Origin: Gammaproteobacteria bacterium
Lineage (GTDB): Bacteria > Pseudomonadota > Gammaproteobacteria > GRL18
Direction of reading: 5' to 3'
Assembly: GCA_016744375.1 (NCBI GenBank)
Contig: JADGEM010000028.1
Location: 1 to 53,080, forward strand
DNA length: 53,080 nucleotides
Positions 6,291 to 29,128 of the stretch are shown here, piece by piece (position 1 is the first letter of the stretch; every line of letters begins with the position of its first letter). The translations under genes were made by a program, and so were the position numbers. The notes below the pieces were generated by a model. The model worked only from the letters and a program-made list of their open reading frames with translations, did no database searches and was not told the DNA's origin.

Positions 6291-6329
6291 AATATCCTCC
6301 TACTTGTGATTATTTATAATGGAATGTGT

Positions 6330-7073: not shown

Positions 7074-7116
7074 AATATTTCACTCGTTATTTTATTGAGA
7101 CCATTACAAAAACAGG

Positions 7117-10209: not shown

Positions 10210-10281
10210 CCTATCTTCCTCCTGGAGATGTCGACATCCGATCATTAATAACGATCAAAACTGATTTATAGAATTGAAGGC

Positions 10282-15257: not shown

Positions 15258-16679
15258 TTAGGCATCAAGAAGACCATGAACCGCATCAGTTGAACGACGC
15301 TGCTGATTTGTATTGCAAGACATAACTTCTTCGGTCAGCTTATACTTACTGATCAGACGATACACCTGACGTTCACTGATCCCCATCACTTGAGCAATAG
15401 TGGTTCGATGGCCTGCATGTTTTTCTAATAAGAATTTTAAATAGCAGGCTTCTATTTCCTCAAGGGTCGGGTCGTCACCGGCTTCGATATCGAGGTGAAA
15501 GCCACTTTTTGTTTGCTCACAACCTTTCAGGTTAAAGTGCTTTCCACGAATAATTTTATTCTTTCGTGACAGAATAATTGCCCGCTCCACCATATTTTTA
15601 AGTTCACGCACATTACCAGGCCAGTCATAGGCGATAAGTTTACGCATTGCTTCTTTAGCCACTGTTTTTTGAACACACATAGAAAAAGAATGATTGCGAA
15701 TAAAGTGTTCAACCAGAAAAGGAATATCATCCCGACGTTCTCTTAATGGGGGGGTATAGATATTAAAGGCATCCAGACGATAATAGAGATCAGCCCGAAA
15801 GTCTTCCGTTTCAGACATCTTCTTCAAATCACGATTAGTGGCAGCGACAATTCTCACATCAGATGTCAGATCGCGGTTTCCACCCACACGCCGAAACTTT
15901 CCAGTTTCCAGAACACGCAGTAGTTTTGCCTGAATAACTGGTGGAATTTCACCAATCTCATCAAGAAATAATGTACCGCCAGAGGCTCCTTCAATCAGGC
16001 CTTTTTTCTTGCCATCTGCCCCGGTAAAAGCACCTTTTTCATGGCCAAATAATTCCGATTCAAATAAACTTTCCTGCAGGGTACAGCAATCAACTGCCAC
16101 AAAATTTTTCTCAGCTCGTAGACTCTGTTCATGTATGGCTCTGGCAACCAGTTCTTTACCCGCGCCACTTTCACCTAAAACAAGGACATTCATATCACTT
16201 GGAGCCACTGCATCAATTAATTCTTTAGCTTGTTCCAGAGCAGGACTTTGACCAATCATAAAGGGATGTTTGTCATTCTGTGCTTTCATGCGTGATTTGC
16301 AGAATTTATGATCCGCTTTCAAAGCAGCGGCTTCCAGTACCCGCTGAACAATCAATGTCAGTTCTTCCGGACTCACGGGTTTAGTGAGATAATGCGCCGC
16401 ACCCGCATGTATGGCTTCCACTGCATTTTTCACTGTACCATAGGCTGTCAGCACAATCACAGGCTGAGATTCAATGATTTTTGGTAACTCATGAATGCAG
16501 TCACCATCAGGAAGGCGCATGTCCGATATGATCAAATCCGGCTCATGCTTATCAAGATATTTCCTTGCAAGCCCGAGACTATTGACCCCTAAAGCCGTAT
16601 GCCCCATGTTTTCCAATTGGTTAACAATCATCTGGTTCACCAGATCATCATCTTCAATAACTAAGATATTGCCATTCAT
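15258..16679 (-). CDS. Sigma-54-dependent response regulator (NtrC class)
   Basis: 473 residues. Receiver domain with phospho-acceptor Asp in LIISDMRLPDGD and conserved TAYG and LTKPVSPEE. AAA+ domain with Walker A (GESGAGKE), the sigma-54-contacting GAFTGA loop, Walker B (GGTLFLDEIGEI) and R-finger region. C-terminal Fis-type HTH (TIAQVMGISERQVYRLISKYKL). It should bind palindromic upstream sites and activate RpoN-RNA polymerase. It overlaps the kinase gene by 4 bp (ATGA). Strong sigma-54 promoters preceded by TGACA-N3-TGTCA occur at 18762 and 19954, so it is the obvious candidate activator of the neighbouring plus-strand genes. The linkage is inferred. Confidence 0.93.
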   Translation of the reverse strand: MNGNILVIEDDDLVNQMIVNQLENMGHTALGVNSLGLARKYLDKHEPDLIISDMRLPDGDCIHELPKIIESQPVIVLTAYGTVKNAVEAIHAGAAHYLTKPVSPEELTLIVQRVLEAAALKADHKFCKSRMKAQNDKHPFMIGQSPALEQAKELIDAVAPSDMNVLVLGESGAGKELVARAIHEQSLRAEKNFVAVDCCTLQESLFESELFGHEKGAFTGADGKKKGLIEGASGGTLFLDEIGEIPPVIQAKLLRVLETGKFRRVGGNRDLTSDVRIVAATNRDLKKMSETEDFRADLYYRLDAFNIYTPPLRERRDDIPFLVEHFIRNHSFSMCVQKTVAKEAMRKLIAYDWPGNVRELKNMVERAIILSRKNKIIRGKHFNLKGCEQTKSGFHLDIEAGDDPTLEEIEACYLKFLLEKHAGHRTTIAQVMGISERQVYRLISKYKLTEEVMSCNTNQQRRSTDAVHGLLDA

Positions 16680-18553
16680 TTTTTCAACCTCTCGATGGAA
16701 GCTTCGGGAATCTTCACAATAAAGCAGCTTCCCCGACCTAATTGACTCTCTACTTCAAGTACTCCGTCACAGCTTTTCACAATAGCTTGAGAGATAGGTA
16801 AACCTAATCCTGTACCATGAATATTATCGGCACGTCGACTGAAGAAAGGCATAAATATACTACCTAGATTCTCTTTAGAGATACCAATGCCATTATCTTC
16901 TAAGCGAACAATGATTATTCCATCTTCCTTTGTACCAGTAATTTTAAGAACACCACCATTAGGCATGGCATGAAAAGCATTTTGTATCAAGTTAAGAAAT
17001 ACCATGCGTATTTCACTCTCACTGGCAAAAACGCGTAAGAGCTGCTCCGGGAATGATTCAACAATTTCAATGGATGACTCATCTGCATCCCATTTTACAA
17101 GACTATATATATCCTGTACTGCTTTATGAATATCGACTAATTCCTGCTGACCTAATGGTGCTGCACTAAGACGAAGAAGACGATCAGTCATCTGGATACA
17201 TTGATCCATTGATTGTTCCGCAATGTCCAGATAATTATTAATTGCGGGAGAACGTCTTTCCTCATCACTATGGGCACGCCTTTTATCCTCAATAGTCAAT
17301 TTCAATGAATTTAATGCTAATTTCATTGAACTCAAAGGATTGTATATTTCATGAGCGACATTTGCAGCCAGGCGACCCAGCTCTGATAAGCGTTGCTCAT
17401 GGGTAAATCGGACTTCGTGGGTAAGATCACGGATTGACTCAACCATCAGAGTCTTCTCTTTACCATCTTTGATAATCACCATAGGTGCCGCAAAAATTTC
17501 AACATCCAGAATCGTGCCATCACATTGAGTATGCTGGCGAACCACTTTAAATGGCTCTCCGGATTTTTGAACTTCCTTCAGAGAACAGTTGACTAAATCA
17601 GATGGGCAAGGTGAATCGAGATTTTGTGTGGCTGTATAGCATTTTTCATTAACCCAGTACTTAGCTGCACAGCCAGTCTGTTCACGAAAAGTCCGATTGA
17701 CCAGCAGCATGTTAAAATCTTCATCAATAATGCGTAAGCCATCAGGAATAGCATCCACCATGGCTTGCAAAAAAATTTGTTCCTCTTCCAGATCGCGCAT
17801 GCTGGATTGAAGGTTTGCAGCCATAAAATTGAAGGTATCACCCAATACAGATAACTCATCATTGCCCGGGAGTTTAACTCGAGTATCCAGCTGACCTTTT
17901 GCCAGAGAATGGCTGGCATTACTTAATATTTCCACTGAACGCAAAATATATCGATGAATAAACCACCAGCCACCAATCAGGTTGATGACAACTATCAATG
18001 CACCAGCGCCCATGAGGACCAGGGTGGTATCACGTGCTTTATGTCGAATAGAAGAGGCTTCATAATCCACCAGCAAAATACCATTAACCGGATTCTCCCT
18101 CACTTTTCCATGGCATTCCTTACATTGAGGTTTGTTGTGTACAGGTCTGATGCTGCGCAGAACTTCAATACCCTGTTCATCCTGAATAAAATTGGTTTTT
18201 GGCTGGCGTTCATGAATCCATTCGCCTTTCAGCTTTCGATTAATATATTGCGGATGACTGGAGAAGCGCACTTGTCCCTCAGGGTTGACAATCATTACAC
18301 TCTTAATATTTTCTTGCTTCCCTAAGCGCTGCACAATATTAGTCAAGCCTTCCAGATCACGCTTGAGCATGGCATTTTCCAATGAAGATTGCAGCAGGTT
18401 ATTGACATCTCGAGCCGCCTGGGCACGCTCCCCCTCCAGTTCAGACTGATAAAAAGTCAAAAACAGGCCCAGAAAAACCAGTGAACTGATAAAAAACCCA
18501 GCAATAGTAGCCACTGTAAATTTGTAATTAAGGCTTTTTACTAATTTAGTCAT
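16676..18553 (-). CDS. Sensor histidine kinase with periplasmic c-type haem motif
   Basis: About 625 residues. A transmembrane segment (about 12-34), a periplasmic sensor domain containing CKECH (C144, C147, H148) preceded by RPVHNKPQ, a second membrane segment (about 172-195), HAMP, a PAS domain (AMVDAIPDGLRIIDEDF), HisKA (NVAHEIYNPLSSMKL) and HATPase with DNGIGISKEN and GTGLGLPIS. The CXXCH suggests covalent haem, so the signal could be redox state, O2, NO or a sulfur species. The cytoplasmic PAS also contains several cysteines. The frame opens at a TTG (18571); the ATG at 18553, behind GGGAG, is preferred. It is the cognate kinase of the NtrC-class regulator. Confidence 0.92.
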   Translation of the reverse strand: MTKLVKSLNYKFTVATIAGFFISSLVFLGLFLTFYQSELEGERAQAARDVNNLLQSSLENAMLKRDLEGLTNIVQRLGKQENIKSVMIVNPEGQVRFSSHPQYINRKLKGEWIHERQPKTNFIQDEQGIEVLRSIRPVHNKPQCKECHGKVRENPVNGILLVDYEASSIRHKARDTTLVLMGAGALIVVINLIGGWWFIHRYILRSVEILSNASHSLAKGQLDTRVKLPGNDELSVLGDTFNFMAANLQSSMRDLEEEQIFLQAMVDAIPDGLRIIDEDFNMLLVNRTFREQTGCAAKYWVNEKCYTATQNLDSPCPSDLVNCSLKEVQKSGEPFKVVRQHTQCDGTILDVEIFAAPMVIIKDGKEKTLMVESIRDLTHEVRFTHEQRLSELGRLAANVAHEIYNPLSSMKLALNSLKLTIEDKRRAHSDEERRSPAINNYLDIAEQSMDQCIQMTDRLLRLSAAPLGQQELVDIHKAVQDIYSLVKWDADESSIEIVESFPEQLLRVFASESEIRMVFLNLIQNAFHAMPNGGVLKITGTKEDGIIIVRLEDNGIGISKENLGSIFMPFFSRRADNIHGTGLGLPISQAIVKSCDGVLEVESQLGRGSCFIVKIPEASIERLKK

Positions 18554-18634
18554 AACTATACAATCTCCCAAAGCACACCTGTTAAACCACTCAAATGCGC
18601 TAATGCACTGGGTACTTTCCGGTACTTTATTGCC

Positions 18635-18662: not shown

Positions 18663-18675
18663 TGACATTTTGTCA
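18663..18675. promoter_or_regulatory. Upstream activator site, TGACA-N3-TGTCA
   Basis: TGACATTTTGTCA, a perfect-arm 13-bp palindrome centred about 93 bp before the -24 element of the sigma-54 promoter at 18762. That is the normal distance for an enhancer-binding protein. It sits in the divergent region between the two-component operon and the secreted-repeat gene. Confidence 0.65.
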
Positions 18676-18761
18676 TATATGTAAAAAAAATCAGCCATAT
18701 CATCACATTAGTTGCAAAAAATACCCTTTAATAGTGCAAGTATTCAACACAATGATATTAA

Positions 18762-18777
18762 TGGCGTATCTCTTGCT
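18762..18777 (+). promoter_or_regulatory. Sigma-54 (RpoN) promoter
   Basis: TGGCGTATCTCTTGCT: GG and GC are exactly 10 nt apart, and 12 of the key positions fit TGGCAC-N5-TTGCW with GT for AC. It lies about 64 bp before the ATG of the gene at 18841 and has an activator palindrome upstream. Confidence 0.75.
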
Positions 18778-18840
18778 TTACCACTCAAAGTAGTAAACTT
18801 TTTCTCAACACCCCGTTAACTAACCTATGAAGGAAATGAT

Positions 18841-19686
18841 ATGTTTAAACAATGCAGATTTTTACCGGGATTATTATCAGCCTCTCTATTAATATACACC
18901 AGTAATGTTCATGCTCAGGAATCTGTTTCCAGCTTTGAACAATCTATAAACAATAACACCAACAAGCCTGCTGGACAGTCCCAACCAGATAATACACCCA
19001 AAATGATTCCTGCTAATTATGATATGAAGGAACTTGCAGAGAAACTAGAAAAACGGGGCTGGGATATTCAGCATAAAAAAGATGGTAGTTTGATTTTAGT
19101 TCCCAAAACAACTCCAGACAATCAAACACATGCATCAACAAAATCACAATGGCAACAATTGCAGGAGAAATTTCAAAATTCTGGGTGGACTGCGACCATT
19201 GATCAGGATGGTTCAATGCACCTAACACCACCAGACAAGGTAATAACATTCAAACAAGAAGATAATAATCAAACAGGTAATAATAAAACGCAGACATTAA
19301 AAAACTCATCTAATCTCTCATTTAAAAAAATGCAAAATAAATTACAGGCAAATGGGTGGGTTGTCAGAAAAAATTCAGATGGCAGTGTTCTGCTCTACCC
19401 TCCTGAACTCAGTGCACAGAAAAAAACAGCATTAGAAAAAGTTATTTCCTGTCCTGGTATAAAGATTTCAAACAAAGTGCCATTACCCATTAATAGCTGG
19501 CAGAAAGCTCACGACATAGCACAAAGCTGGCTTAATCATGAGTCCATTTCTGATATGTCAGTCGGAAAGATACGTAAAATTTTTAATGTTTATATCATCA
19601 GTATTGTTGCTGATAAAGCACCTTTCAATCTCAAATATCAAATCGCTATAAAAAACAGCAATGGAGCCGTGATTGTACTTAACTGA
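18841..19686 (+). CDS. Secreted protein with three GW...DGS repeats and a PepSY-like C-terminus
   Basis: 281 residues, not recognised as a named family. A signal peptide ends near VHA-QES. Three imperfect repeats of about 31 residues follow, at about 60-89, 102-131 and 158-188. Each has a helix (LxxxLxxxGW) and then a hairpin ending DGS-x-x-L-x-P (GWDIQHKKDGSLILVP, GWTATIDQDGSMHLTP, GWVVRKNSDGSVLLYP). Low-complexity Asn/Gln linkers separate them. The C-terminal 75 residues (from about PINSWQKAHDIAQSWL) resemble a PepSY-type domain. The gene has its own sigma-54 promoter and activator site, and a terminator follows at 19849. It is probably a periplasmic or extracellular component of the same regulon as the molybdoenzyme operon. 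Confidence 0.75.
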   Translation: MFKQCRFLPGLLSASLLIYTSNVHAQESVSSFEQSINNNTNKPAGQSQPDNTPKMIPANYDMKELAEKLEKRGWDIQHKKDGSLILVPKTTPDNQTHASTKSQWQQLQEKFQNSGWTATIDQDGSMHLTPPDKVITFKQEDNNQTGNNKTQTLKNSSNLSFKKMQNKLQANGWVVRKNSDGSVLLYPPELSAQKKTALEKVISCPGIKISNKVPLPINSWQKAHDIAQSWLNHESISDMSVGKIRKIFNVYIISIVADKAPFNLKYQIAIKNSNGAVIVLN

Positions 19687-19693
19687 CCCCCTC

Positions 19694-19723
19694 TTGTCAG
19701 GATGTACAGATACATCCTGACAA
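19694..19723. repeat. Perfect 13-bp inverted repeat overlapping the activator site
   Basis: Arms TTGTCAGGATGTA and TACATCCTGACAA with a 4-nt loop (CAGA), just after the stop of the upstream gene. The right arm shares its TGACA with the operator at 19718-19730, so three TGTCA/TGACA half-sites lie within 36 bp. It may be an mRNA 3' hairpin, an extended operator, or both. The nearest T run is about 15 nt away. Confidence 0.6.
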
Positions 19724-19730
19724 ATTGTCA
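19718..19730. promoter_or_regulatory. Upstream activator site, TGACA-N3-TGTCA
   Basis: TGACAAATTGTCA, perfect arms, about 225 bp before the -24 element of the sigma-54 promoter at 19954. This is at the long end for an enhancer but still within the range that works through DNA looping. Confidence 0.6.
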
Positions 19731-19848
19731 CTTCTGATATTTTTTTTAAAAAGCTACTGCAAATAATTGTTTTTGCAAATCATTTTTAAATTTATTATAT
19801 AAACAAAAAGAACATCTTTACCCACATCATTCAGCCTCCAATCATTGC

Positions 19849-19873
19849 CCTGACACAAAGTCAGGTTTTTATT
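19849..19873 (+). terminator. Rho-independent terminator after the secreted-repeat gene
   Basis: CCTGAC, a 5-nt loop (ACAAA), GTCAGG, then TTTTTATT. The stem is perfect and separates the 18841 transcript from the operon starting at the next sigma-54 promoter. Confidence 0.75.
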
Positions 19874-19953
19874 TCTACGGTATTTGCGTTACCTGAACAA
19901 AATCCAATTATATTATCATTTTTCAATAACTTAACTAAGCATTTACAGTACTG

Positions 19954-19969
19954 GCACAGGCGTTGCTAC
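19954..19969 (+). promoter_or_regulatory. Consensus sigma-54 promoter of the DmsAB-like operon
   Basis: TGGCACAGGCGTTGCT matches TGGCAC-N5-TTGCW at every consensus position. Transcription should start near 19981, which rules out the upstream ATG at 19970 as the start of the next gene. Confidence 0.85.
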
Positions 19970-20014
19970 ATGAGAACCAAACACACGAACTCAGGCACAT
20001 TCAGGATTCAATTT

Positions 20015-20320
20015 ATGAATATAAAAGTTAAAAACGTTTTAACACCTTTAGCGTGGTTATTTATGACTGCCACCGTTTCTTCAACGGTTGCGGCAACAGA
20101 TTATCCCATTGCAGGGACAGCTCCTTCACAGCGACCTGTAGGGGCACCCACTATTGAATGGATTCAACATGAACGTGCATGGTTTAAAAATGCCCTGACG
20201 GGTGTTACTCAGCCTTATCCTCGCAGCCTTTATTTTCTGGATAATCAGGGAAACTGGTACACACCATTTACTCACCCTGGAATGGTAGATCGCTATGATC
20301 TGCGGAGATGGCATCACTAA
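20015..20320 (+). CDS. Small secreted protein, first gene of the sigma-54 operon
   Basis: 101 residues. The frame is open from 19970, but that ATG lies at the predicted transcription start. The ATG at 20015 has AGGA 8 nt upstream and gives a proper signal peptide (about 27 residues, ending VAA-TDY). The mature part (about 74 residues) is rich in Pro, Trp, Tyr and His: PVGAPTIEWIQHERAWFKNALTG-like text, then LYFLDNQGNWYTPF and a C-terminal RRWHH. I recognise no family. The aromatic-x-QG-aromatic-Pro segment resembles the FKITPQGQIFFYP insert of the Met-rich protein encoded next. Confidence 0.72.
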   Translation: MNIKVKNVLTPLAWLFMTATVSSTVAATDYPIAGTAPSQRPVGAPTIEWIQHERAWFKNALTGVTQPYPRSLYFLDNQGNWYTPFTHPGMVDRYDLRRWHH

Positions 20321-20324
20321 TTTA

Positions 20325-20372
20325 AGGTTTTTGTGACAAGGGGGTAGCTCTTTATTCATCACAAAAAACCAT
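20325..20372 (+). repeat. Leader hairpin before the Met-rich gene
   Basis: GGTTTTTGTGA and TCACAAAAAACC pair around a loop of about 22 nt, between the small secreted gene and the Met-rich gene. It is followed by a shorter imperfect hairpin (CTGACCG ... CGGCCAG, about 20379-20402). The structure could protect or regulate the downstream message. Confidence 0.45.
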
Positions 20373-20425
20373 AAATATCTGACCGGAATGGTTTCGGCCA
20401 GACTCAAATTCCTTAGGAGGAAAAC

Positions 20426-21496
20426 ATGAAAATTCGAATGCTAACACTAACCAAGCAAATCAAAAAAATCCTTGGCGCTGCAGCCATTGTTAGTGCAGTT
20501 GCAGCCACCTCCGTTAGTGCCAGCATGTATGGCATGAGCGGTATGGGCGGTATGTCTGGCATGAATGGTATGTCTGGAATGAACGGCATGGGCGGTATGT
20601 CCGGAATGAACGGCATGAGTGGCATGTCTGGAATGAACGGCATGAGTGGCATGTCTGGAATGGGCGGCATGTCTGGCATGAGCGGCATGAACGGCTACTT
20701 CAAGATCACCCCACAAGGACAAATCTTCTTCTATCCCGCATCTGGTATGAGCGGTATGTCTGGAATGAGTGGAATGGGCGGTATGTCTGGAATGGGCGGT
20801 ATGTCTGGAATGAACGGTATGTCTGGAATGGGCGGTATGTCTGGAATGAACGGCATGTCTGGCATGAACGGTATGTCTGGAATGAACGGTATGTCTGGAA
20901 TGAACGGTATGTCTGGAATGAACGGTATGTCTGGAATGAACGGTATGTCTGGAATGAACGGCATGTCTGGAATGGGCGGTATGTCTGGAATGGGCGGTAT
21001 GTCTGGAATGAACGGTCGTTGGATCTGGAGACCTGCTGGCATGAGTGGTATGTCTGGAATGAACGGCATGGGCGGTATGTCTGGAATGAACGGCATGGGC
21101 GGTATGTCTGGAATGAATGGCATGGGCGGTATGTCTGGAATGAATGGCATGGGCGGTATGTCTGGAATGAATGGCATGAGTGGAATGTCTGGTATGGGCG
21201 GTATGTCTGGAATGAACGGTATGTCTGGCATGAGTGGTATGTCTGGCATGGGCGGTATGTCTGGAATGAGCGGCTATTTCAAGATCACTCCACAAGGACA
21301 AATCTTCTTCTATCCAGCTACTGGCATGAGTGGTATGTCTGGAATGGGCGGTATGTCTGGAATGAGCGGTATGTCTGGAATGAATGGCATGGGTGGTATG
21401 TCTGGAATGAACGGCATGGGCGGTATGTCTGGAATGAATGGCATGGGCGGTATGTCTGGAATGAATGGCATGGGTGGTATGTCTGCCTGGAGATAA
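20426..21496 (+). CDS. Secreted methionine-rich Met-Ser-Gly repeat protein
   Basis: 356 residues. A strong ribosome binding site (AGGAGG, 5 nt spacing) precedes the ATG. A signal peptide of about 32 residues ends TSVSA. The mature protein is almost wholly hexapeptide repeats MSGMNG, MSGMGG and MSGMSG, so about every third residue is Met. It is broken by three short aromatic inserts: FKITPQGQIFFYP near residue 93 and again near 284, and GRWIWRPAG near 197. It contains no Cys. Such a chain is likely extended or disordered. Possible roles are Cu(I) binding through MxxM, a sink for oxidants through Met sulfoxide, or a structural protein like sulfur-globule proteins. Its place in an operon with a DmsA-like enzyme is the main clue. 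I know no characterised homologue. Confidence 0.85.
   Translation: MKIRMLTLTKQIKKILGAAAIVSAVAATSVSASMYGMSGMGGMSGMNGMSGMNGMGGMSGMNGMSGMSGMNGMSGMSGMGGMSGMSGMNGYFKITPQGQIFFYPASGMSGMSGMSGMGGMSGMGGMSGMNGMSGMGGMSGMNGMSGMNGMSGMNGMSGMNGMSGMNGMSGMNGMSGMNGMSGMGGMSGMGGMSGMNGRWIWRPAGMSGMSGMNGMGGMSGMNGMGGMSGMNGMGGMSGMNGMGGMSGMNGMSGMSGMGGMSGMNGMSGMSGMSGMGGMSGMSGYFKITPQGQIFFYPATGMSGMSGMGGMSGMSGMSGMNGMGGMSGMNGMGGMSGMNGMGGMSGMNGMGGMSAWR
20525..21487 (+). repeat. 18-bp coding tandem repeats (about 50 units)
   Basis: Units close to ATGTCTGGAATGAACGGT, with variants that change AAC to GGC or AGC. Many neighbouring units are identical in sequence, which suggests recent expansion and makes length change by slippage or recombination likely. 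Confidence 0.85.
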
Positions 21497-21514
21497 GGTC
21501 ACTTCACTCCTCCA

Positions 21515-21578
21515 CTGCACATGGACGTGCATGATGACATGTGCAGGGACGCATCATATACAGGCGCTTAAATGCGCC
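21515..21578 (+). terminator. Two hairpins after the Met-rich gene (partial terminator or mRNA stabiliser)
   Basis: Hairpin 1 pairs CTGCACATG (21515-21523) with CATGTGCAG (21538-21546). Hairpin 2 pairs GGCGC with GCGCC (21563-21578) and is followed by ATCATTTT. The T run is weak, so read-through into the cytochrome and dmsA-like genes is expected, giving more Met-rich protein than enzyme. Confidence 0.5.
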
Positions 21579-21609
21579 ATCATTTTAAGTAGCCTGAGGT
21601 CAAAACAAT

Positions 21610-22404
21610 ATGAAAAGATATTATCTCTTCCTGACACTAATCCCGCTATCGATATTTGTAATGACACTCTCGGCAGCTGAAAACTTAACAAGCAAAGATT
21701 ACCATCGTGCACAATGGGATCCCATCCATTTCCAACCCGATATTGCAACAGCAACGAATAAACAATGCCTGAGTTGTCATCAGGAAGTGCTTGAGCAAAA
21801 AGTAGAAACAAAATCACCGGCTGGTGTTGAAGCTGCATCTACCCTGGCCTGGTATCAGACACTGACAACCTATGAAGGCCCACAGAAAACTTTTCACCAA
21901 CGTCATTTGTCCAGTGACTTAGCAAAGCAGGTCATGGACATGAAATGCACAACCTGCCATCAGGGTAGCAATCCTCGTGAAGAAGCAATTATTCCTCCCG
22001 ATCAGAACCTGGATCAGTTTACCCTGCGTAAATCAGTTAATCCGGAAACCTGTCTCATGTGTCATGGTGACTTCCCGGACTTCAAGCGTATGGGACTGAC
22101 TTCACACTGGAACACATCAAGAGATATTTTTCAGAACAACTGTCTACTTTGTCATGCTGGTGTTCGCACAACTCGGCATCAGGTTAACTTCCTCAAGGCA
22201 GAAGCCATAGAGAGTGCAGGTAAAAAAGATTCTGATATCTGCTTTGGGTGCCATGGCGGCCGTCAATGGTATCGCATTGCTTATCCTTATCCAAGACATG
22301 CATGGGATGGTATGGCCAAAGAGATTCCTGACTGGGCAAAAGATCGTCCCACAGAATCGCATCCAAGATTTAAACTCCAAACCGAAAAAGTAAGCAAAAA
22401 ATAA
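21610..22404 (+). CDS. Periplasmic pentahaem cytochrome c
   Basis: 264 residues with a signal peptide (ending LSAAE) and five CXXCH motifs: CLSCH, CTTCH, CLMCH, CLLCH and CFGCH. Many other His residues could serve as sixth ligands. It does not look like NapC/NirT or NrfB; I cannot name the family. It lies directly upstream of the DmsA-like gene and probably exchanges electrons with the DmsAB-like pair, replacing the missing DmsC-type membrane anchor. Confidence 0.88.
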   Translation: MKRYYLFLTLIPLSIFVMTLSAAENLTSKDYHRAQWDPIHFQPDIATATNKQCLSCHQEVLEQKVETKSPAGVEAASTLAWYQTLTTYEGPQKTFHQRHLSSDLAKQVMDMKCTTCHQGSNPREEAIIPPDQNLDQFTLRKSVNPETCLMCHGDFPDFKRMGLTSHWNTSRDIFQNNCLLCHAGVRTTRHQVNFLKAEAIESAGKKDSDICFGCHGGRQWYRIAYPYPRHAWDGMAKEIPDWAKDRPTESHPRFKLQTEKVSKK

Positions 22405-22431
22405 TGAAACTGGCGTAAAGGAAAATAAACT

Positions 22432-25008
22432 ATGAGTATTAAAGAAAGCTTTGATAAGCTTCAGCAACGCCTTAATCTGACAAGACGTTCATTTTTAAAA
22501 GGCACAGCAACCAGTGCAGGAGTTCTCGCAACCAGTGGACTGGTAGAAATGAAATGTGGTAAGGAGGCCAAGGCATTTGCCTATGAACCTTATCCAAAAG
22601 ATGATCAGTTAGAAACAGTCGTGACCAGTTGTGCACACAATTGTGGCTCACGCCACATGTTAGTCGCACATAAATGGAAAGATGTCATAGTTCGGCTTTC
22701 AAGCGATGATGGCCGTTATCAAAAAGGAGGGGAATTTAACAAAGATACAATGGAAGAGCCACAGTTACGAGCCTGTTTAAGGGGTCGTTCCTATCGCCAG
22801 CGTCTCTATTCTGCTGAACGGCTGCTTTATCCTATGATGCGTGTAGGTGAACGTGGTGAAGGTAAATTCAAACGGGTTTCATGGGATGAAGCCCTAAGCT
22901 TTGTCGTAAAAAAAATGAACCACCTCAAAAGTACCTATGGACCCACTGCTATTCTGGATCAAAGTTATGCAGGTGCCTCCTATGGTGTACTACACAAATC
23001 TGATCAAATTGAAGGCTTATTAGGGCGCTTTTTAGGTATGTTCGGTTGCCGTACAAACTCCTGGTCTGTCCCTTCTTATGAAGCAACCACCGCCAGTTCT
23101 AAATGGACTTACGGTACCATTCAGGATGGAAATGAGGATGATACCTATGCCGAATCCAAGCTGATGATTATGTGGGGCTGGAATCCAGCTTATACTTTTC
23201 ACGGCGGTAATACCTTTATGTATATGCGTATGGCCAAGCAACGAGGCTGTAAGTTTGTTTTGATTGATCCGCAATATACTGACTCAGCCGCAGCCTATGA
23301 TGCCTGGTGGATCCCTATCAAGCCAAATACAGATGCCGCCATGATGGCCGGTATGGCACATTATATCTTTACCAATAATCTACAGGATCAGGAATTTATT
23401 AATAATTTTGTCCAGGGTATGGATGCCGGGACAATGCCTGACTGGAGTAAAAATTCAGCCAATGGTAAAGAAAACTTTAAAGACTACATTATGGGCACCT
23501 ATGATGGCCAGCCAAAAACACCGGAATGGGCCGAAAAAATCTGTGGTGTCCCTGCTAAGGACATTATAAAACTGGCTGATATGTATGCAACAACAAAACC
23601 AGCAGCTCTCAAAGCCTCCTGGGCGCCAGGACGTAATGCTTATGGAGAGCAATACAGCCGCATGGCCGCTGCATTACAAGCAATGACTGGTAATATTGGT
23701 AAACTGGGTGGCTGCGCTGAAGGTGTCGGTAAAGGCTGGCATGCTGAAGCCGTAGCTTATCCCTATGATCAATACGCTAATATCTGGTTTCAAGCCATTA
23801 AATCCGATCGTTGGGCACATTGTGTACTAAATTATCCTAACGTCAAACGAGAAGAAGTTGGCCTCTGGCCTCGTCAGGATGCGACTGATGGTCAAATACC
23901 CAATATCAAAGCAATTTTCTGGCAAGGTTCAGACTGGCTTAATCAGCTGACCAACATTAACAAAGATCTTGAAGCAATAAAAATGCTTGAACTCGTTGTC
24001 TGTATGGATTCCACAATCACACCTTCTGGCCTCTGGGCAGACATACTATTACCGGTATCCACTCACTTTGAACGTCATGATACGGCCCTGCCCTGGTACA
24101 AGGGACACTACTATATCCATCGCCCAAAAGTCATTGAACCTATGGGTGAATCAAAAACTGATATTCAGATATTTACTGAATTAGCCTATCGAATTGGTGG
24201 TGATGTTTTTGGTAAAGCATATAACCCCAAAGCAAGCAGAAATTATTTTAATGATAATAATGCTGTTGATGAAGCTTACCTTCGTGATTGGTGGGAAGGT
24301 CAGGTTATGGCACATCAACATGTTGATATGCCCTGGAATGAATTTAAAAAGCATGGCGTCTACAAATTTAAACTGGATCGTCCTCATATCGCATTTCAGG
24401 ATCAGATTGAAAAAGGCAAACGCTTCGAAACTGCTTCAGGGAAAATCGAAATTCTCAGCACTCAGCTGGCCAATATTGCTGATTGGAAAAAAACAAAATA
24501 TGGTTATCATATTCCATCGATTCCAAAATGGATCGAACCCTGGGAATCATTAAACTCACCTAAAACCAAAAAATGGCCCTTCCATATGATTTCTCCACAT
24601 CCGAGATGGCGCACGCATTCCATCTTCAATAACTGTTCCTGGTTACGTGAAACCTATGACCAGGAAGTCACCATGAATGCATCTGATGCAAAACGCATGG
24701 GCATAAAAAATGGTGAGACAGTTCAAGTTTGGAATGATCGAGGGAAAATTATCCTGCCAGTCTATGTTACTGAACGCTGCATGCCCAGCGTGTTGGTTGT
24801 CTATGAAGGTGCCTGGATGGATTTAGATGAAAATGGTGTTGACCGAGCAGGTAATCCTGACTTTCTGACTCTTGATGAACCCAGTCCTGCCGGTTCTTTT
24901 GCTTACAACACTGTGTTGTGTAATATACAGAAAACTGATCTGGTCCATCGTCCTGGCTGGGACAAACTGGCTACTTCCCGCGCCCACGTTTTTCGTCGCG
25001 ATTACTAA
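22432..25008 (+). CDS. DmsA-like molybdopterin oxidoreductase, catalytic subunit (copy 1)
   Basis: 858 residues. A Tat signal (LTRRSFLKG, residues 16-24) directs folded export. The FS0 cluster motif is C67-x3-C71-x3-H75 ... C115 (ACLRGRS), with His in place of the third Cys of E. coli DmsA. The molybdenum region aligns without gaps to DmsA over VPSYEATTASSKWTYG and puts Ser215 at the Mo-ligand position, preceded by a 7-residue insertion. Other family blocks: GEGKFKRVSWDEAL, GWNPAYTFHGG, LIDPQYTDSAA, LKASWAPGRNAYGEQYSRM and PSPAGSFAYNTV. A Ser-ligated enzyme of this type normally reduces S- or N-oxides; the substrate here is unknown. It is followed by its FeS subunit and a TorD-type chaperone. 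Confidence 0.9.
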   Translation: MSIKESFDKLQQRLNLTRRSFLKGTATSAGVLATSGLVEMKCGKEAKAFAYEPYPKDDQLETVVTSCAHNCGSRHMLVAHKWKDVIVRLSSDDGRYQKGGEFNKDTMEEPQLRACLRGRSYRQRLYSAERLLYPMMRVGERGEGKFKRVSWDEALSFVVKKMNHLKSTYGPTAILDQSYAGASYGVLHKSDQIEGLLGRFLGMFGCRTNSWSVPSYEATTASSKWTYGTIQDGNEDDTYAESKLMIMWGWNPAYTFHGGNTFMYMRMAKQRGCKFVLIDPQYTDSAAAYDAWWIPIKPNTDAAMMAGMAHYIFTNNLQDQEFINNFVQGMDAGTMPDWSKNSANGKENFKDYIMGTYDGQPKTPEWAEKICGVPAKDIIKLADMYATTKPAALKASWAPGRNAYGEQYSRMAAALQAMTGNIGKLGGCAEGVGKGWHAEAVAYPYDQYANIWFQAIKSDRWAHCVLNYPNVKREEVGLWPRQDATDGQIPNIKAIFWQGSDWLNQLTNINKDLEAIKMLELVVCMDSTITPSGLWADILLPVSTHFERHDTALPWYKGHYYIHRPKVIEPMGESKTDIQIFTELAYRIGGDVFGKAYNPKASRNYFNDNNAVDEAYLRDWWEGQVMAHQHVDMPWNEFKKHGVYKFKLDRPHIAFQDQIEKGKRFETASGKIEILSTQLANIADWKKTKYGYHIPSIPKWIEPWESLNSPKTKKWPFHMISPHPRWRTHSIFNNCSWLRETYDQEVTMNASDAKRMGIKNGETVQVWNDRGKIILPVYVTERCMPSVLVVYEGAWMDLDENGVDRAGNPDFLTLDEPSPAGSFAYNTVLCNIQKTDLVHRPGWDKLATSRAHVFRRDY

Positions 25009-25029
25009 TCAGATTTGAAGGAATAGAAC

Positions 25030-25695
25030 ATGTCAACGAAAAAAGATGTTAAGAAAATACGGGAAGCAGTTAAACGTACAAAACGTGAAACTTATACGCC
25101 TGTTAAGCCTGATATGCAAATGGGGTTTGTTCATAACAATGTGGACTGTATTGGCTGTCGTGCTTGCGAAATAGCTTGTAAAGACAAAAACGGACTGGCT
25201 CCTGGACCTCGGTTTCGACGCGTGCAATACATTGAAGGGGGAACTTATCCTGATGTATTTGCTTATAAGGTCAATATGTCCTGTAATCACTGTGCTGAGC
25301 CTGCTTGTCTACCCACCTGCCCTACCGGGGCAATATTTAAGCGAAAAAAAGACGGCATTGTCGATATTGACTCAACACTTTGTATCGGTTGTCGTCGCTG
25401 TGAAGCAGCCTGCCCTTATGGTGCTCCTCAATATGATCCATCTGATAATATTGTTAAAAAATGCAATATGTGTGTCGATGAAATTGATGCCGGAAGAAAA
25501 CCCTATTGTGTCATGGCTTGCATGATGCGGGTTCTGGATATCGGGCCTATTGAAAAGATTTGGGATGGTAGCCTTGAAACCATAGCTTATGGTGGAAAAG
25601 ACATGATTTCCCGTCAAGTTAAGAATATGGCCAATATTGAATTAACGAAACCCTCTATTGGTTTTGTTGCCCATAGCAAAGGGAAAATAAAATGA
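25030..25695 (+). CDS. DmsB-like four-cluster [4Fe-4S] subunit
   Basis: 221 residues with four Cys motifs: CIGCRACEIACK, CNHCAEPACLPTCP, CIGCRRCEAACPYGAPQY and CNMC with CVMACM. The spacing, the YGAPQY block and the C-terminal ELTKPSIGF tail match DmsB. It carries electrons between the molybdenum subunit and a periplasmic or membrane partner. No DmsC/NrfD gene follows, so electrons probably pass to the penta- and monohaem cytochromes of the operon. It overlaps the chaperone gene by 4 bp. Confidence 0.92.
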   Translation: MSTKKDVKKIREAVKRTKRETYTPVKPDMQMGFVHNNVDCIGCRACEIACKDKNGLAPGPRFRRVQYIEGGTYPDVFAYKVNMSCNHCAEPACLPTCPTGAIFKRKKDGIVDIDSTLCIGCRRCEAACPYGAPQYDPSDNIVKKCNMCVDEIDAGRKPYCVMACMMRVLDIGPIEKIWDGSLETIAYGGKDMISRQVKNMANIELTKPSIGFVAHSKGKIK

Positions 25696-26459
25696 ACGCT
25701 GCATTACCTAAATCTGATCTACCCGATTTTTTAACTACTTTCAGAATGCGAGTTGCCGAAGATCTTAATCTCATGGCAACCTTGCATGCTCATGAACCCG
25801 ATGCTGCACTGCTTAAGGAACTCAAAAAAATAGACTTTCCTTTTTGCCTGACTTTAATACCTGAAAGTGGTCCTGGTGCCCAATCAATGTTTTTATTAGA
25901 GGAAGCATTAACACTGCTATCAACGGATGTCTCTCAAAGTACTCTTGATGATCTTGCTGCTGACTACGCCAGCATCTATCTTAATCATAATATTTCAGCC
26001 TCTCCTGAAGAGTCTGTCTGGCTCGATGAAGATAGCCTGGTGTGTCAGCAGAGCATGTTTGATGTGCGCACCTGGTATGAAACATATGGCCTTGAAATTC
26101 CAGACTGGCGGCAGAGACCTGATGATCATCTAGTTTATGAACTGCAATTTATTGCACGATTATTAGAGAGAGATGAAGATTTAAAAACATTGGAGCAAAT
26201 TACTGTTTTTATGGATGAACATTTACTGCGCTGGCTAGGAAACTTTGGTGAGCGTGTACTGGGTCGTTGCGATACTCAATACTTTGCCAGTGTTGCTGCA
26301 CTGACTGCCGCATTTTGTGAAGACCTACGGGATGTTCTTGCAGAAGTGCTGGAACAGCCTCGTCCCACAAGAGAAGAAATTGAAGAACGTATGAAACCTA
26401 AACAAGCGACACAGGATGAAGCTCTTCAATATATGCCTGGCATAGGCCCGGCAGTTTAA
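25692..26459 (+). CDS. TorD/DmsD-family molybdoenzyme maturation chaperone
   Basis: 255 residues, all-helical, with the TorD-family core ADYASIYLNHN...PEESVWLDED and a long helix around PDWRQRPDDHLVYELQFI. Such proteins bind the Tat signal and apo-enzyme so that the molybdenum cofactor is inserted before export. The ATGA overlap with the FeS gene couples their synthesis. It may also serve the second DmsA-like protein at 30425, whose Tat region (NRRSFLKG) is nearly identical. The C-terminal 30 residues are charged and probably disordered. Confidence 0.88.
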   Translation: MNAALPKSDLPDFLTTFRMRVAEDLNLMATLHAHEPDAALLKELKKIDFPFCLTLIPESGPGAQSMFLLEEALTLLSTDVSQSTLDDLAADYASIYLNHNISASPEESVWLDEDSLVCQQSMFDVRTWYETYGLEIPDWRQRPDDHLVYELQFIARLLERDEDLKTLEQITVFMDEHLLRWLGNFGERVLGRCDTQYFASVAALTAAFCEDLRDVLAEVLEQPRPTREEIEERMKPKQATQDEALQYMPGIGPAV

Positions 26460-26490
26460 CCTTAAACACTAAAACTCCAGAGGATTTTTT

Positions 26491-26868
26491 ATGAATCAAT
26501 TATTTAAATTTTTATCCATTACGGCCGCGGCCTTCATGTTAACCACACAGGTGTCAGCAGGTGATGCCGCCGCCGGAAAAGCAATTTATGATGGTGCAGG
26601 CGCCTGTGCATCCTGTCATGGTGCCACTGGTGAAGGTGATGGTGTTGCCGCTGTCGCATTTAATCCAAAACCTTCCAGTTTTGCTGAAAGTGCCTTCCGA
26701 ATAGACACCGATGGTGATGGTACCAAAGGAAGTGATACAGATTTAAGCAATACGATTAAAAATGGTGCAGCAAAATATGGGGGTAATGTCGGCATGCCTG
26801 GACGACCTGATTTTTCTGACACTCAGATCAACGATCTCGTTGCATATATTCGTTCATTAAAGAAATAA
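26491..26868 (+). CDS. Monohaem cytochrome c
   Basis: 125 residues, class I. A signal peptide ends QVSAGD, the haem site is CASCH, and a candidate distal Met is in VGMPGRPDF. It is the last gene of the sigma-54 operon, 31 bp after the chaperone gene, and is likely the soluble electron carrier for the DmsAB-like enzyme. A strong terminator follows. Confidence 0.9.
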   Translation: MNQLFKFLSITAAAFMLTTQVSAGDAAAGKAIYDGAGACASCHGATGEGDGVAAVAFNPKPSSFAESAFRIDTDGDGTKGSDTDLSNTIKNGAAKYGGNVGMPGRPDFSDTQINDLVAYIRSLKK

Positions 26869-26904
26869 AAATTGACACGTCGGGCACTCGAGCAGCCCAA
26901 AAGG

Positions 26905-26926
26905 ATGTGGCTGAAGCCACATTTTT
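26905..26926 (+). terminator. Rho-independent terminator of the DmsAB-like operon
   Basis: ATGTGGC, a TGAA tetraloop, GCCACAT, then TTTT. The 7-bp stem is perfect. It ends the operon and shows that the following FeS gene cannot start at the upstream ATG at 26907, which lies within the hairpin. Confidence 0.85.
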
Positions 26927-26990
26927 GATGGGCGAACCTCCCTTCTCCCATCATTTTTTTAGCAAAATAAGTACCTTCAAAAGGCATAGC

Positions 26991-28133
26991 ATGTTCAAAA
27001 AAAAACAGCATATTATTGATAAGATTACACAAGAATTTCATCTCCCTGAAATAAATGCTGACGCCTGTGTTCATGCTCTTTGTAAGGATACTAATTGCCA
27101 GGCTTGCGTTGATGCATGTCCAGCACATGCCTGGGTGCTGGATGATAAGACCCTGGGGCTTGATATTGAAGCTTGTGATGGTTGCGGTCTATGCGTACCA
27201 GCCTGTCCTTCCGGTGCAATACATGTTAATTTCCCATGGGTTACCCGGCAAGTAAGTGCACGGATGGTAGCCCTTTTTGCATGTGATAAAAGTGGCATTG
27301 ATGAAAGTTCTGGAATACTTCCCTGCATACATTCTTTAGGACTCAGACAGCTATTACAACTCTATAATTCGGGTATTGAACACCTGTTACTAGCCACAGC
27401 GAAATGTAAAGACTGCTCACGTCAGCCATCAGAGAGTCTCTATAAACGCCTGGAACAACTCAACCATCTTCTATTTGAGCATAAAAAATCACCTATAATC
27501 ATCATGCAGCGTTCAAATGAGGTGTGGACAAAAATTTTTAGAACTGATGAAACTGTAAGTCGAGGAACTCAAGTATCAAGACGCAGTTTTATGAGCGGTG
27601 GTGGACAACAGTTACGTAAGCAACTACTGATCATTGATCCGCTCAATCATTCTGAATTTCAGACCATTCCTCCAGGGCAATTGCTGCCCAATAGTCACAC
27701 AGAAAAAGCTCATTGGCCATGGACACCTCAACTTGATGAGCAGCAATGTAATGGCTGTGATGCCTGTATAAAACTCTGTCCTACTGATGCACTGAGTCTT
27801 TTAAAAAGTGATAGTGATTCATCGGGAATGTATGAGTTAAACCCTGTGCAATCAATGTATAAGGTAAACCCGCAAAACTGTACAGGCTGTGGAATTTGTA
27901 CCACTGCCTGTGAATCAGACGCTATAAGCATCCATTCCTGGTCACTGTCAACATCCCTTAGTATTGATCTGGTTCAAAACGATTGCACAGCATGTGGTAA
28001 TGCCTTTCATTCCCCGGAACAACACTTTTTACAGCAGCAGTTACAACAACCAAATAAACAGTCTGACAAAATCCTTTGCCGTATTTGTAAACTTCACAAT
28101 CATAGTACTGATCTTTATCAGGTACTGGACTAA
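26991..28133 (+). CDS. Poly-[4Fe-4S] ferredoxin-like protein
   Basis: About 380 residues from the ATG at 26991 (AAGG 6 nt upstream). Cys-rich blocks: NCQACVDACP and CDGCGLCVPACP at the N-terminus, a central segment with FACDKSG ... CIHSLGLRQLL ... TAKCKDC that resembles the MvhD/HdrF-type cluster domain, then CNGCDACIKLCP, CTGCGICTTACE and a C-terminal CRICKLH. It lacks a signal peptide; an internal SRRSFMSGGG is Tat-like but in mid-protein. It could feed low-potential electrons or assist cluster or cofactor assembly for the DmsA-like enzymes. I cannot assign a known family name. It is just upstream of phosphoribulokinase. Confidence 0.8.
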   Translation: MFKKKQHIIDKITQEFHLPEINADACVHALCKDTNCQACVDACPAHAWVLDDKTLGLDIEACDGCGLCVPACPSGAIHVNFPWVTRQVSARMVALFACDKSGIDESSGILPCIHSLGLRQLLQLYNSGIEHLLLATAKCKDCSRQPSESLYKRLEQLNHLLFEHKKSPIIIMQRSNEVWTKIFRTDETVSRGTQVSRRSFMSGGGQQLRKQLLIIDPLNHSEFQTIPPGQLLPNSHTEKAHWPWTPQLDEQQCNGCDACIKLCPTDALSLLKSDSDSSGMYELNPVQSMYKVNPQNCTGCGICTTACESDAISIHSWSLSTSLSIDLVQNDCTACGNAFHSPEQHFLQQQLQQPNKQSDKILCRICKLHNHSTDLYQVLD

Positions 28134-28150: not shown

Positions 28151-29038
28151 ATGACACAAAGACATCCAATTATTGCAATAACAGGCTCTTCCGGTGCAGG
28201 TACAACCACTGTCAAAGATACCCTGGATACTATATTTGAACGAGTTGGTGCTAAAGCTGCTTTTGTAGCAGGTGATAGTTTTCATCGATTTAATCGTACT
28301 GAAATGAAAAAAGAGAAAAAGAAAGCAAAAAAAAATGGCAAACGACTGAGTCACTTTGGCCCAGAAGGTAATCTTTTTAAAAAACAATTAGAGCTCTTTC
28401 AGAAGTATGGTAAAGATGGTACTGGAGAAATACGCCAATACATTCATGATGAAGAGGAAGCCGCAATCTATGGCTGTAAGCCAGGCACTTTTTCACCATG
28501 GGAAGATATTCCTGTTGGCAGTGATTTACTTTTTTATGAAGGTCTGCATGGCGGTGTAATCACTGATAAATATAACCTGGCTGATGAGGTTGATCTATTA
28601 ATAGGTGTTGCCCCCTCTATAAATCTGGAGTGGATTCAGAAAATTAATCGTGATACCAAAGAGCGAGGCTATGATCACGAAGATGTCTGTGATGCAATTT
28701 ATCGTCGTATGTATGACTATATGAATTTTATTTTACCTCAGTTTTCCAATACTCATATCAATTTTCAACGTGTACCGATTGTTGATACATCTAATCCATT
28801 CATGGTGAGACAGATACCAACATCCGATCAAAGTCTGGTTATTATCCATTTTTTAAAATTTCAACCTTCTGTTGAATATAAATTACATTTGAAGGGTTTA
28901 ATTGAGGGACTTGAGATCACCACATACAGCACCATGGTGATTCCAGGTGGAAAAATGCAATACGCAATGGAATTAATTTTGACCAAGCTCATTTTAGAAC
29001 TTATGGAAAAACGTGGTCACTTAACAGATACTTTTTAA
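28151..29038 (+). CDS. prkB: Phosphoribulokinase
   Basis: 295 residues of the proteobacterial type. The Walker A-like motif is AITGSSGAGTTT, followed by GDSFHRF, the Asp-bearing SHFGPEGN block, LFYEGLHGGV and a YDHEDVCDAIYRRM segment. The enzyme phosphorylates ribulose-5-phosphate to ribulose-1,5-bisphosphate and commits carbon to the Calvin-Benson cycle, so the host is very probably autotrophic. No RuBisCO gene is in the window. The gene lies 17 bp after the ferredoxin-like gene and may be cotranscribed with it and the tRNA that follows. Confidence 0.93.
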   Translation: MTQRHPIIAITGSSGAGTTTVKDTLDTIFERVGAKAAFVAGDSFHRFNRTEMKKEKKKAKKNGKRLSHFGPEGNLFKKQLELFQKYGKDGTGEIRQYIHDEEEAAIYGCKPGTFSPWEDIPVGSDLLFYEGLHGGVITDKYNLADEVDLLIGVAPSINLEWIQKINRDTKERGYDHEDVCDAIYRRMYDYMNFILPQFSNTHINFQRVPIVDTSNPFMVRQIPTSDQSLVIIHFLKFQPSVEYKLHLKGLIEGLEITTYSTMVIPGGKMQYAMELILTKLILELMEKRGHLTDTF

Positions 29039-29051: not shown

Positions 29052-29128
29052 GGCTATATAGCTCAGATGGTTAGAGCACAGCATTCATAATGCTGGGGTC
29101 ACTGGTTCAATTCCAGTTATAGCTACCA
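29052..29128 (+). tRNA. tRNA-Met (CAT), copy 1
   Basis: 77 nt, with CCA encoded. The acceptor stem pairs GGCTATA with TATAGCT, the D arm is GCTCAG...GAGC, the anticodon stem-loop is CAGCA-TTCATAA-TGCTG, and the T arm is CTGG-TTCAATT-CCAG. Overall it matches gammaproteobacterial elongator tRNA-Met. A lysidine-modified tRNA-Ile is unlikely from the acceptor sequence. Confidence 0.93.

Follow-up and report, generated by a model that had tools for sequence, protein, structure and literature searches.

Why would a bacterium encode, within a single operon, an exported protein in which about every third residue is a methionine and a molybdoenzyme of the dimethyl sulfoxide (DMSO) reductase family, and what, if anything, do the two have to do with one another? 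The question is raised by contig JADGEM010000028.1 of a Gammaproteobacteria bacterium (GenBank assembly GCA_016744375.1), positions 1 to 53,080 of which make up the stretch analyzed here ("the window"). Its main operon (20012-28133) runs P102-MET-CYT5-dmsA-dmsB-torD-cytc-polyferredoxin, MET being the methionine-repeat protein, and a sensor histidine kinase/response regulator pair (HK and RR, 15258-18571) is divergent from it and from the preceding P281 gene (18841-19686). We consider it rather probable that the locus supports periplasmic methionine cycling of the kind represented by MrpX/MsrPQ, built on an unrelated molybdoenzyme; the substrate, the direction of electron flow and the oxidant, as well as the roles of P102 and the kinase, are what we infer from the sequence. 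The genes of the operon, with two spacers inside MET, are:

20012-20320, plus strand: P102, a conserved small exported protein (40-sequence alignment)
20426-21496, plus strand: MET, exported methionine-repeat protein of 356 aa with 95 Met
20696-20737, plus strand: first YFKITPQGQIFFYP spacer in MET, a predicted beta hairpin (predicted local distance difference test score, pLDDT, about 78)
21275-21316, plus strand: second YFKITPQGQIFFYP spacer in MET, a predicted beta hairpin (pLDDT about 77)
21610-22404, plus strand: CYT5, an exported pentahaem cytochrome c (5 CXXCH)
22432-25008, plus strand: DmsA-like molybdenum subunit with a twin-arginine translocation (Tat) signal; Ser215 at 23074-23076; FS0 motif Cys67-Cys71-His75-Cys115
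25030-25695, plus strand: DmsB-like iron-sulfur subunit (Pfam/NCBIfam matches)
25692-26459, plus strand: TorD-type chaperone (Pfam/NCBIfam matches)
26491-26868, plus strand: exported monohaem cytochrome c (Pfam scan)
26907-28133, plus strand: polyferredoxin-like iron-sulfur protein without an export signal, its ATG start likely being 26991

An earlier note on this DNA, made from the letters alone, had listed a small exported protein, the Met protein, a pentahaem cytochrome, DmsA/DmsB-like subunits, a TorD-type chaperone and a monohaem cytochrome, and all of these are indeed present; the module is larger than the extent it gave (18663-26926), taking in the kinase/regulator pair (15258-18571), the polyferredoxin (26907-28133) and P169 (29674-30183).

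The pairing of MET with a particular clade of DmsA-like proteins is what carries the argument. Members of this clade were found in 13 of 57 relatives, the genome of the window included (cut-off E 1e-80), and in 16 of 369 genomes of one class sampled at one genome per species (E 1e-100), the latter belonging to 13 genera, with matches at least 71% identical and a gap from there down to the cut-off. A run of seven Met-x-Gly units plus Met, the pattern by which MET was sought in the same 369 genomes, is present in 20 of them overall, that is, in 16/16 genomes with the DmsA clade versus 4/353 of the others (Fisher p 1.2e-24, kinship ignored), and dmsA shares a contig with the run in 13 of these 16, namely the window and 12 others. 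All four genomes positive for MET and negative for DmsA were scored as misses: one (G059) encodes a 116-aa exported Met-Gly-Gly protein with the core genes absent, in another (G227) a Met-Leu-Gly run falls in a frame of 49 aa, and in the remaining two (G259, 55% complete, and G294, which has P102 as well) MET stands with HK and RR at the start of a contig, beyond which dmsA may be situated.

The same picture is obtained starting from dmsA. The named loci are the best 80 of 124 dmsA relatives, all 74% identical or more, mostly from metagenome-assembled genomes, a few of whose labels (e.g., "Clostridia bacterium") look like mislabelled bins. At least five consecutive Met-x-Gly units are found within 4 kb upstream of dmsA in 69 of the 80 and nowhere else in the locus, a count that includes three METs (L097, L107, L108) missed by a stricter one owing to N runs inside the repeat. 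Where 4 kb of upstream sequence exists, MET is there in 31/36 loci, or 33/36 with the degenerate Met-rich proteins of L102 and L131, and it is absent despite the available sequence from L117, L128 and L129. The earlier note had asked whether the Met protein keeps company with dmsA-like genes and would have counted its failure to do so toward a refutation; approached from either side (16/16 versus 4/353 genomes, 69/80 loci), the two do go together. The pairing of a methionine polymer with a distinctive clade of a sulfoxide reductase family makes most sense, in our view, with the one serving as substrate for the other.

As for the rest of the operon, CYT5, with five CXXCH motifs in the window frame and its homologues, is present in 77/78 named loci having 900 bp upstream, P102 in 30/36 having 4 kb upstream, and, where 5 kb downstream is available, DmsB in 56/57, TorD in 54/57 and the polyferredoxin in 48/57. 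Among the 27 loci with 8 kb on both flanks, HK and RR are each found in 23 (HK is absent from L102, L120, L122 and L129) and P281 in 11. A scan for recurring neighbours in 34 representative loci (open reading frames of at least 100 aa, E 1e-15, families assigned by visual inspection of a single member) yielded, as families common to at least four loci, the core genes, P169 (7), P281 (6), an ABC transporter (4) and frames overlapping the core; the monohaem cytochrome was not grouped at this setting. Host genomes include, among Gammaproteobacteria, Thiodiazotropha, Sedimenticola, Thiolapillus, Thiomargarita, and tubeworm and lucinid symbionts; among Betaproteobacteria, Thiobacillus, Zoogloea, Rhodocyclaceae and Sulfuritalea; and among Alphaproteobacteria, Rhodovulum, Paracoccus, Thermopetrobacter and Filomicrobium. 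A Rhodobacter xanthinilyticus plasmid, predicted to be conjugative, bears the operon too, and its record labels MET and P102 as hypothetical. In L128 (Thiomargarita nelsonii), a clade dmsA has only an opposite-strand TorD nearby, with no MET or cytochrome found.

What kind of enzyme is it, then? Within the alignment of 87 clade members (85 from the loci and the two window copies, with four DmsA/YnfE sequences as an outgroup) the lowest pairwise identity is 67% and the median 79%. The best NCBIfam matches of the two subunits are TIGR02166 (DmsA/YnfE; 599.3 bits, curated cut-off 777.7) and TIGR02951 (190.7 bits, curated cut-off 214.1), both short of their cut-offs, as are the matches of the large subunit to TIGR00509 (TorA/DorA/BisC; 393.7 bits, cut-off 1017.55) and TIGR03479 (type II DMSO reductase; 221.9 bits, cut-off 984.75). 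It has the reductase domains PF00384/PF01568, and its best match in the PDB is DorA (E 5e-70). All 87 members have Ser at the column of Ser215, aligned with the Ser of 4/4 outgroup proteins, and phmmer aligns Ser215 of the window with the Ser of DorA as well; we take this residue to be the molybdenum ligand, as established for the DmsA family, and the Ser ligand named in the earlier note is in keeping with the alignment. A twin-arginine motif falls within the first 60 residues (as cut) in 80/87 members, some of the other seven being truncated or different at one position. The FS0 motif, in turn, reads Cys67-x3-Cys71-x3-His75...Cys115 in 87/87, whereas 4/4 outgroup proteins have Cys in the third place, and His75 may be a ligand of the FS0 cluster.

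The Ser column also bears on the suggestion that the enzyme works in the opposite direction, as a thioether dehydrogenase oxidising Met or a small thioether and passing electrons to the cytochromes. Several soluble DMSO reductase family enzymes with cytochrome partners are dehydrogenases, and sequence cannot tell the direction of a reaction; those soluble cytochrome-partnered dehydrogenases, however, fall within the type II group, whose ligand is Asp, whereas the present clade has Ser and reaches 221.9 of the required 984.75 bits on the type II model, which makes this explanation extremely unlikely in our opinion.

No NrfD/DmsC-type anchor was found in the window operon or among the neighbours recurring in the 34 representative loci, so the earlier note was right in stating its absence, even if a separate NrfD cluster does exist at 6330-10626 of the window. 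An enzyme without a membrane anchor would have its electrons supplied through cytochromes, and the Ser column, the Tat signal and the exported partners, read together, fit a periplasmic S-oxide reductase acting on MET. In the obvious competing explanation, the enzyme takes electrons from the cytochromes to respire a small acceptor, be it DMSO, trimethylamine N-oxide (TMAO), some further S- or N-oxide or an oxyanion, and MET would only guard the periplasm from stray oxidant or by-products, the part that mrpX plays next to perchlorate reductase. Such a role is in keeping with the few dmsA copies without MET (the second dmsA copy of the window stands alone) and with dmsAB of lucinid and Solemya symbionts being annotated as DMSO reductases in two symbiont papers (PMC11237559, PMC4287430), although these genes may or may not belong to the present clade. 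The 16/16 association with the Met run would, on the other hand, seem tighter than a mere protectant needs, no acceptor-specific partner recurs in the 34 loci, and the quinol-linked anchor of DmsABC is absent from the operon; we consider this explanation unlikely.

MET itself is a rather extreme protein. That of the window has 95 Met among its 356 residues (27%), 89 of the 94 spacings between them being exactly three, just as the earlier note's "about every third residue" would have it, and its 92 Met-x-Gly units have Ser (48), Asn (24), Gly (19) or Tyr (1) as x. For 31 METs that are full-length and free of N (from the window, the named loci and the plasmid), the medians are 273 aa, 68 Met, 26% Met and 92% of spacings equal to three, with lengths of up to 394 aa. 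The Gly codons of the window MET are mixed (GGC 46, GGT 37, GGA 34), and thus the repeat is maintained at the protein level rather than by fresh DNA duplication; Tandem Repeats Finder reports 63-76% matches for its DNA. A low-confidence AlphaFold2 model from the single sequence (mean pLDDT 42) has the arrays unstructured, which they probably are, and the spacers as two short hairpins. A YF.I.P.G hairpin spacer is seen in 15/31 METs, and Trp occurs among the last 10 residues in 23/31. The aromatic hairpin (YF.I.P.G.I.FYP) resembles the three GW..DGS..L.P modules of P281, and, going by these motifs, the two are perhaps a common docking element. The Pfam "Collagen" match of MET (87.6 bits, over the cut-off) and the matches to NCBIfam collagen-like adhesins (under theirs) were set aside as effects of composition, because Gly at every third residue produces them.

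Such a composition also invites the idea that MET soaks up or chaperones Cu(I)/Ag(I) in the periplasm, with the enzyme being a neighbour in need of protection from the metal. Met-rich stretches of copper proteins resemble the Met-x-Gly-Met runs, and Cys and His are scarce in mature METs (any Cys in 12/31, any His in 7/31, at most 2), which would leave Met as the main soft ligand. No copper gene is found among the recurring neighbours of the 34 loci, however, control lies with a c-haem kinase and sigma-54, and the strict pairing with a molybdoenzyme would go unexplained; we regard metal binding as a very unlikely explanation of the locus.

A structural role would be another way of accounting for a Gly-rich, low-complexity protein with aromatic hairpins: a sulfur globule coat, a matrix or a condensate former of sulfur oxidisers, with the enzyme either tuning its assembly via the Met oxidation state or acting on stored sulfur. 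The dsrA gene is over the cut-off in 20/23 carriers of the operon compared to 38/114 class genomes, some carriers included (p 2.7e-6), and remains enriched in the 13 carriers outside the window's family (p 5e-4). It is, however, also found in 14/21 non-carrier relatives (p 0.16 versus carriers), so lineage explains part of the link to sulfur oxidation; SoxB is over the cut-off in 18/23 carriers and 16/21 non-carriers, two carriers (G031, 75% complete, and G133) have neither dsrA nor SoxB, and Zoogloea, Paracoccus and the Rhodobacter plasmid carry the operon as well. All in all, a structural function strikes us as highly improbable.

The methionine cycle, which we prefer, would work as follows. 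Exported MET, with one Met per three residues, would absorb an oxidant such as peroxide, hypohalite, peroxynitrite or singlet oxygen, its Met becoming Met sulfoxide; the DmsA/DmsB-like enzyme, exported by the Tat route after the TorD-type chaperone has assisted its maturation, would return the protein-bound Met sulfoxide to Met, with electrons coming from the respiratory chain via the pentahaem cytochrome and, in many loci, the monohaem one too; P102 would probably dock MET or the cytochrome to the enzyme; and the c-haem kinase with the sigma-54 regulator would set the operon by redox state. A more daring version makes MET a protein-borne store of electron acceptor: oxygen would charge its ~90 thioethers, and the pentahaem cytochrome and DmsAB would later respire the sulfoxide, two electrons each, once oxygen or nitrate is exhausted. 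We think this quite unlikely, yet, if true, it would give a bacterium at the oxic-anoxic boundary a rechargeable periplasmic acceptor (a "battery") and not just an antioxidant.

Both halves of such a cycle have precedents. DorA, the DMSO-family enzyme closest to the window protein in the PDB, has no iron-sulfur partner subunit. DmsAB served by a multihaem cytochrome is also known from the extracellular DMSO reductase of Shewanella, DmsEFABGH, which the window operon resembles in this respect; unlike there, CYT5 has five haem motifs (28.2 bits against a cut-off of 192.2 on TIGR03508, the decahaem DmsE, i.e., five haems versus ten), and no porin partner is found among the recurring neighbours of the 34 loci. 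E. coli DmsABC and YnfE share with the window enzyme the best NCBIfam models (TIGR02166, TIGR02951) and the Ser ligand column, and differ from it in sequence (clade members are 35-38% identical to E. coli DmsA, 33-36% to YnfE, and 32-37% to YnfE and two other DmsA taken together), in the scores below both curated cut-offs, in having Cys where all 87 have His at the third FS0 position, and in relying on a DmsC anchor where the window operon has a pentahaem cytochrome. Perchlorate reducers pair a periplasmic Met-rich peptide with a molybdenum methionine sulfoxide (MetO) reductase in mrpX/yedYZ, according to the sections of the two papers used here (PMC4623255, PMC5748585), and the exported Met-rich protein encoded together with a molybdenum reductase (MrpX with MsrPQ, or YedY1/YedZ1), the quinone-side electrons and the oxidant-linked regulation, as described there, may be counted as common ground. 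The present system differs in that its reductase is DmsAB of the DMSO reductase family and not MsrP, its likely electron route is the pentahaem cytochrome and not MsrQ, and its locus is controlled by a c-haem kinase and a sigma-54 regulator and not by SigF/NrsF, to which the Met-x-Gly repeat of up to 394 aa and the additional P102, TorD and polyferredoxin have to be added. As for the enzymatic half, DorA of Rhodobacter sphaeroides reduces protein-bound MetO and favours the peptide QWGAGM(O)QAEED over TTPGYM(O)EEWNK, as reported (PMC7402097); it shares the Ser-ligated DMSO reductase family with the window protein, which the NCBIfam scores nevertheless put nearer to DmsA/YnfE, and it has no dedicated substrate protein. 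No description of the operon was found among the titles and abstract openings listed by searches of the open-licence literature, and the earlier note's claim that no operon of this make-up has been described may stand to that extent, whereas the principle is not new, the mrpX/yedYZ precedent having been missed. What appears to be new is a conserved module joining both known halves, with a cytochrome, a P102 and a sensor of its own.

Several observations weigh against this interpretation, and they are best taken together. The Met run lies off the dmsA contig in 3/16 genomes: in G153, the MET gene stands with P281, HK and RR, and the dmsA contig begins inside dmsA; in G199, the protein is a Met-Glu-Gly one, and about 1.5 kb is all that precedes dmsA on its contig; in G145, a short run ends an EF-hand-like protein, a different kind of protein altogether, with no MET in the 2.1 kb before dmsA. 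Clade dmsA genes without an adjoining MET occur in L041, L095, L117, L128 and L129, and, conversely, satellite MET genes lie away from dmsA in L165 and L166, both with P281 and the latter also with HK and RR. The FS0 motif is unlike that of DmsA, so DmsA activity cannot simply be transferred by analogy. No oxidant-linked gene is found among the families common to at least 4/34 loci (frames of at least 100 aa, identified by eye). MsrP (NF003767), finally, is found in 7/23 carriers versus 12/21 chosen non-carriers (p 0.13; the latter include G294, which has MET, P102, HK and RR and in which no dmsA was found) and, within the window's family, in 0/10 carriers versus 4/10 non-carriers (p 0.09). 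BisC and TorZ/MtsZ are inactive on protein-bound MetO, and such action has not been demonstrated for E. coli DmsA, going by the part of a review considered here (PMC8076862). In favour of the methionine cycle, there is no MsrP match in the genome of the window; replacement of MsrP by the present system, considered across the 44 chosen genomes, was dropped as mixed and not significant, a weak hint only. The EF-hand-like protein of G145 (L168:2920-3333) ends in a Met-Ser-Gly/Met-Asp-Gly run.

If the methionine cycle is nevertheless real, protein methionine would have a second redox cycle, built independently and equipped with a molybdoenzyme clade, a polymeric substrate, a cytochrome path and a sensor of its own. 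Its range would take in Alpha-, Beta- and Gammaproteobacteria, many of them sulfur oxidisers, with tubeworm and clam symbionts and a predicted conjugative plasmid among the carriers. Genome papers are liable to read the clade dmsA as DMSO respiration, which would have to be revised if MET is the substrate, and the His-for-Cys FS0 motif along with the Met protein offers sharp markers for locating the system.

The control of the locus is encoded next to it, on the following features:

15258-16679, minus strand: sigma-54-dependent response regulator, RR (Response_reg, Sigma54_activat and Fis helix-turn-helix)
16676-18571, minus strand: sensor histidine kinase, HK (HAMP, PAS, HisKA, HATPase; CXXCH in the N-terminal, periplasmic part)
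18663-18675: putative regulator site, palindrome TGACA-N3-TGTCA
18762-18777, plus strand: sigma-54 promoter match 5' of P281 (motif search)
18841-19686, plus strand: P281, exported, with three ~30-aa GW..DGS..L.P modules and no Pfam family
19718-19730: second putative regulator site, palindrome TGACA-N3-TGTCA
19952-19967, plus strand: sigma-54 promoter match of the main operon, 5' of P102 (motif search)

Only two sites in the window match the sigma-54 motif TGGCRYN5TTGCW exactly, one preceding P281 (18762) and the other P102 (19952); in 53 kb, 0.27 would be expected (5/100 shuffles reach two). There are, accordingly, two sigma-54 promoter matches and not the one implied by the earlier note, and P281 is probably a unit of its own. 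Within 300 bp before P102, a sigma-54 site is found in 16/37 loci in its strict form and in 25/37 without the last base, compared to 0.20 and 0.23 expected from control windows of the same loci. The first ATG of the P102 frame (19970) sits at the promoter, which makes 20012, from where the product has a signal sequence, seem the preferable start. The palindrome TGACAN3TGTCA occurs three times in the window (0.06 expected) and 13 times in the 4.29 Mb genome; two of the three lie upstream of the sigma-54 sites, and the third precedes the NrfD cluster, with no exact sigma-54 site there. We do not claim a wider palindrome regulon, as none of the 10 sites elsewhere in the genome has a sigma-54 match in the 3.5 kb around it. 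CXXCH lies within the first 260 aligned residues of 36/36 HK homologues from the named loci and the plasmid.

P102 is recognizable by the motif IAG..P..RP.GAP...WY..AL.G...PYP.SL.FL..QG.WYTPF..PGM...YD.R.WH, with 11 invariant columns in the 40-sequence alignment, and resembles little else: its best match against Pfam is at E 0.016, in 1/39 members only, its best match against the PDB at E 0.18, and the structure predicted from 39 sequences has a mean pLDDT of 66. CYT5 likewise has a best PDB match of E 0.59.

Downstream of the operon, the window continues into what looks like a genus-level island:

28151-29038: phosphoribulokinase paralogue
29052-29128, plus strand: tRNA-Met (CAU), an extra copy
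29674-30183, plus strand: P169, family unknown, recurring beside MET loci, no Pfam match
30296-30372, plus strand: second tRNA-Met (CAU)
30425-32992, plus strand: second dmsA-like copy, 87% identical, with dmsB, MET and cytochrome of its own absent

P169 is found beside MET in 7/34 representative loci and also adjoins the satellite MET locus L165. The island tRNA-Met, presumably of the elongator type given its likeness to known tRNAs, accompanies the operon in L030, L031, L033, L034, L036, L037 and, in G021, at the contig end, but is absent from L032. Elsewhere in the genome, a single copy of 91% identity is present in 9 of the 13 genomes searched; the non-carriers G008, G009 and G010 have no other, and the non-carrier G013 has none that close. 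Within the genus, the island copy is in 5/6 carriers searched versus 0/4 non-carriers (p 0.048), and no tRNA-Met was found beside the operon outside the window's family in the 34 loci scanned. Extra tRNA-Met genes traveling with the operon are what one would expect if the Met-rich protein is produced in large amounts. The phosphoribulokinase paralogue goes with the island too, and in nine other genomes of the family that were searched, the carrier G007 included, it has only a 51-53% identical relative. The second dmsA copy stands alone behind the second tRNA-Met, and L033 has a dmsA fragment at the same place.

At 4836-10626 on the minus strand, genes for a monohaem and a tetrahaem cytochrome, a Tat-type iron-sulfur protein, NrfD, a UbiE-like methyltransferase and a flavoprotein stand in a row. 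Relatives of the NrfD gene occur in 8/44 genomes: six of the eight carriers searched in the genus (none of the four non-carriers there), the non-carrier G218 at 56% identity, and G370 at 42%. The cluster (6330-10626) was accordingly rejected as the missing quinol module, being no general partner. Near the NrfD cluster of G005 lies a gene for an exported-looking MsrA (PF01625; L188:6346-7014), which is not among the open reading frames of the window. Finally, a tandem repeat, GTTAAACATTG, is present in 6.5 copies at 45808-45888 of the window, between the divergent genes of a Cys/Met-metabolism pyridoxal phosphate enzyme and an alcohol dehydrogenase.

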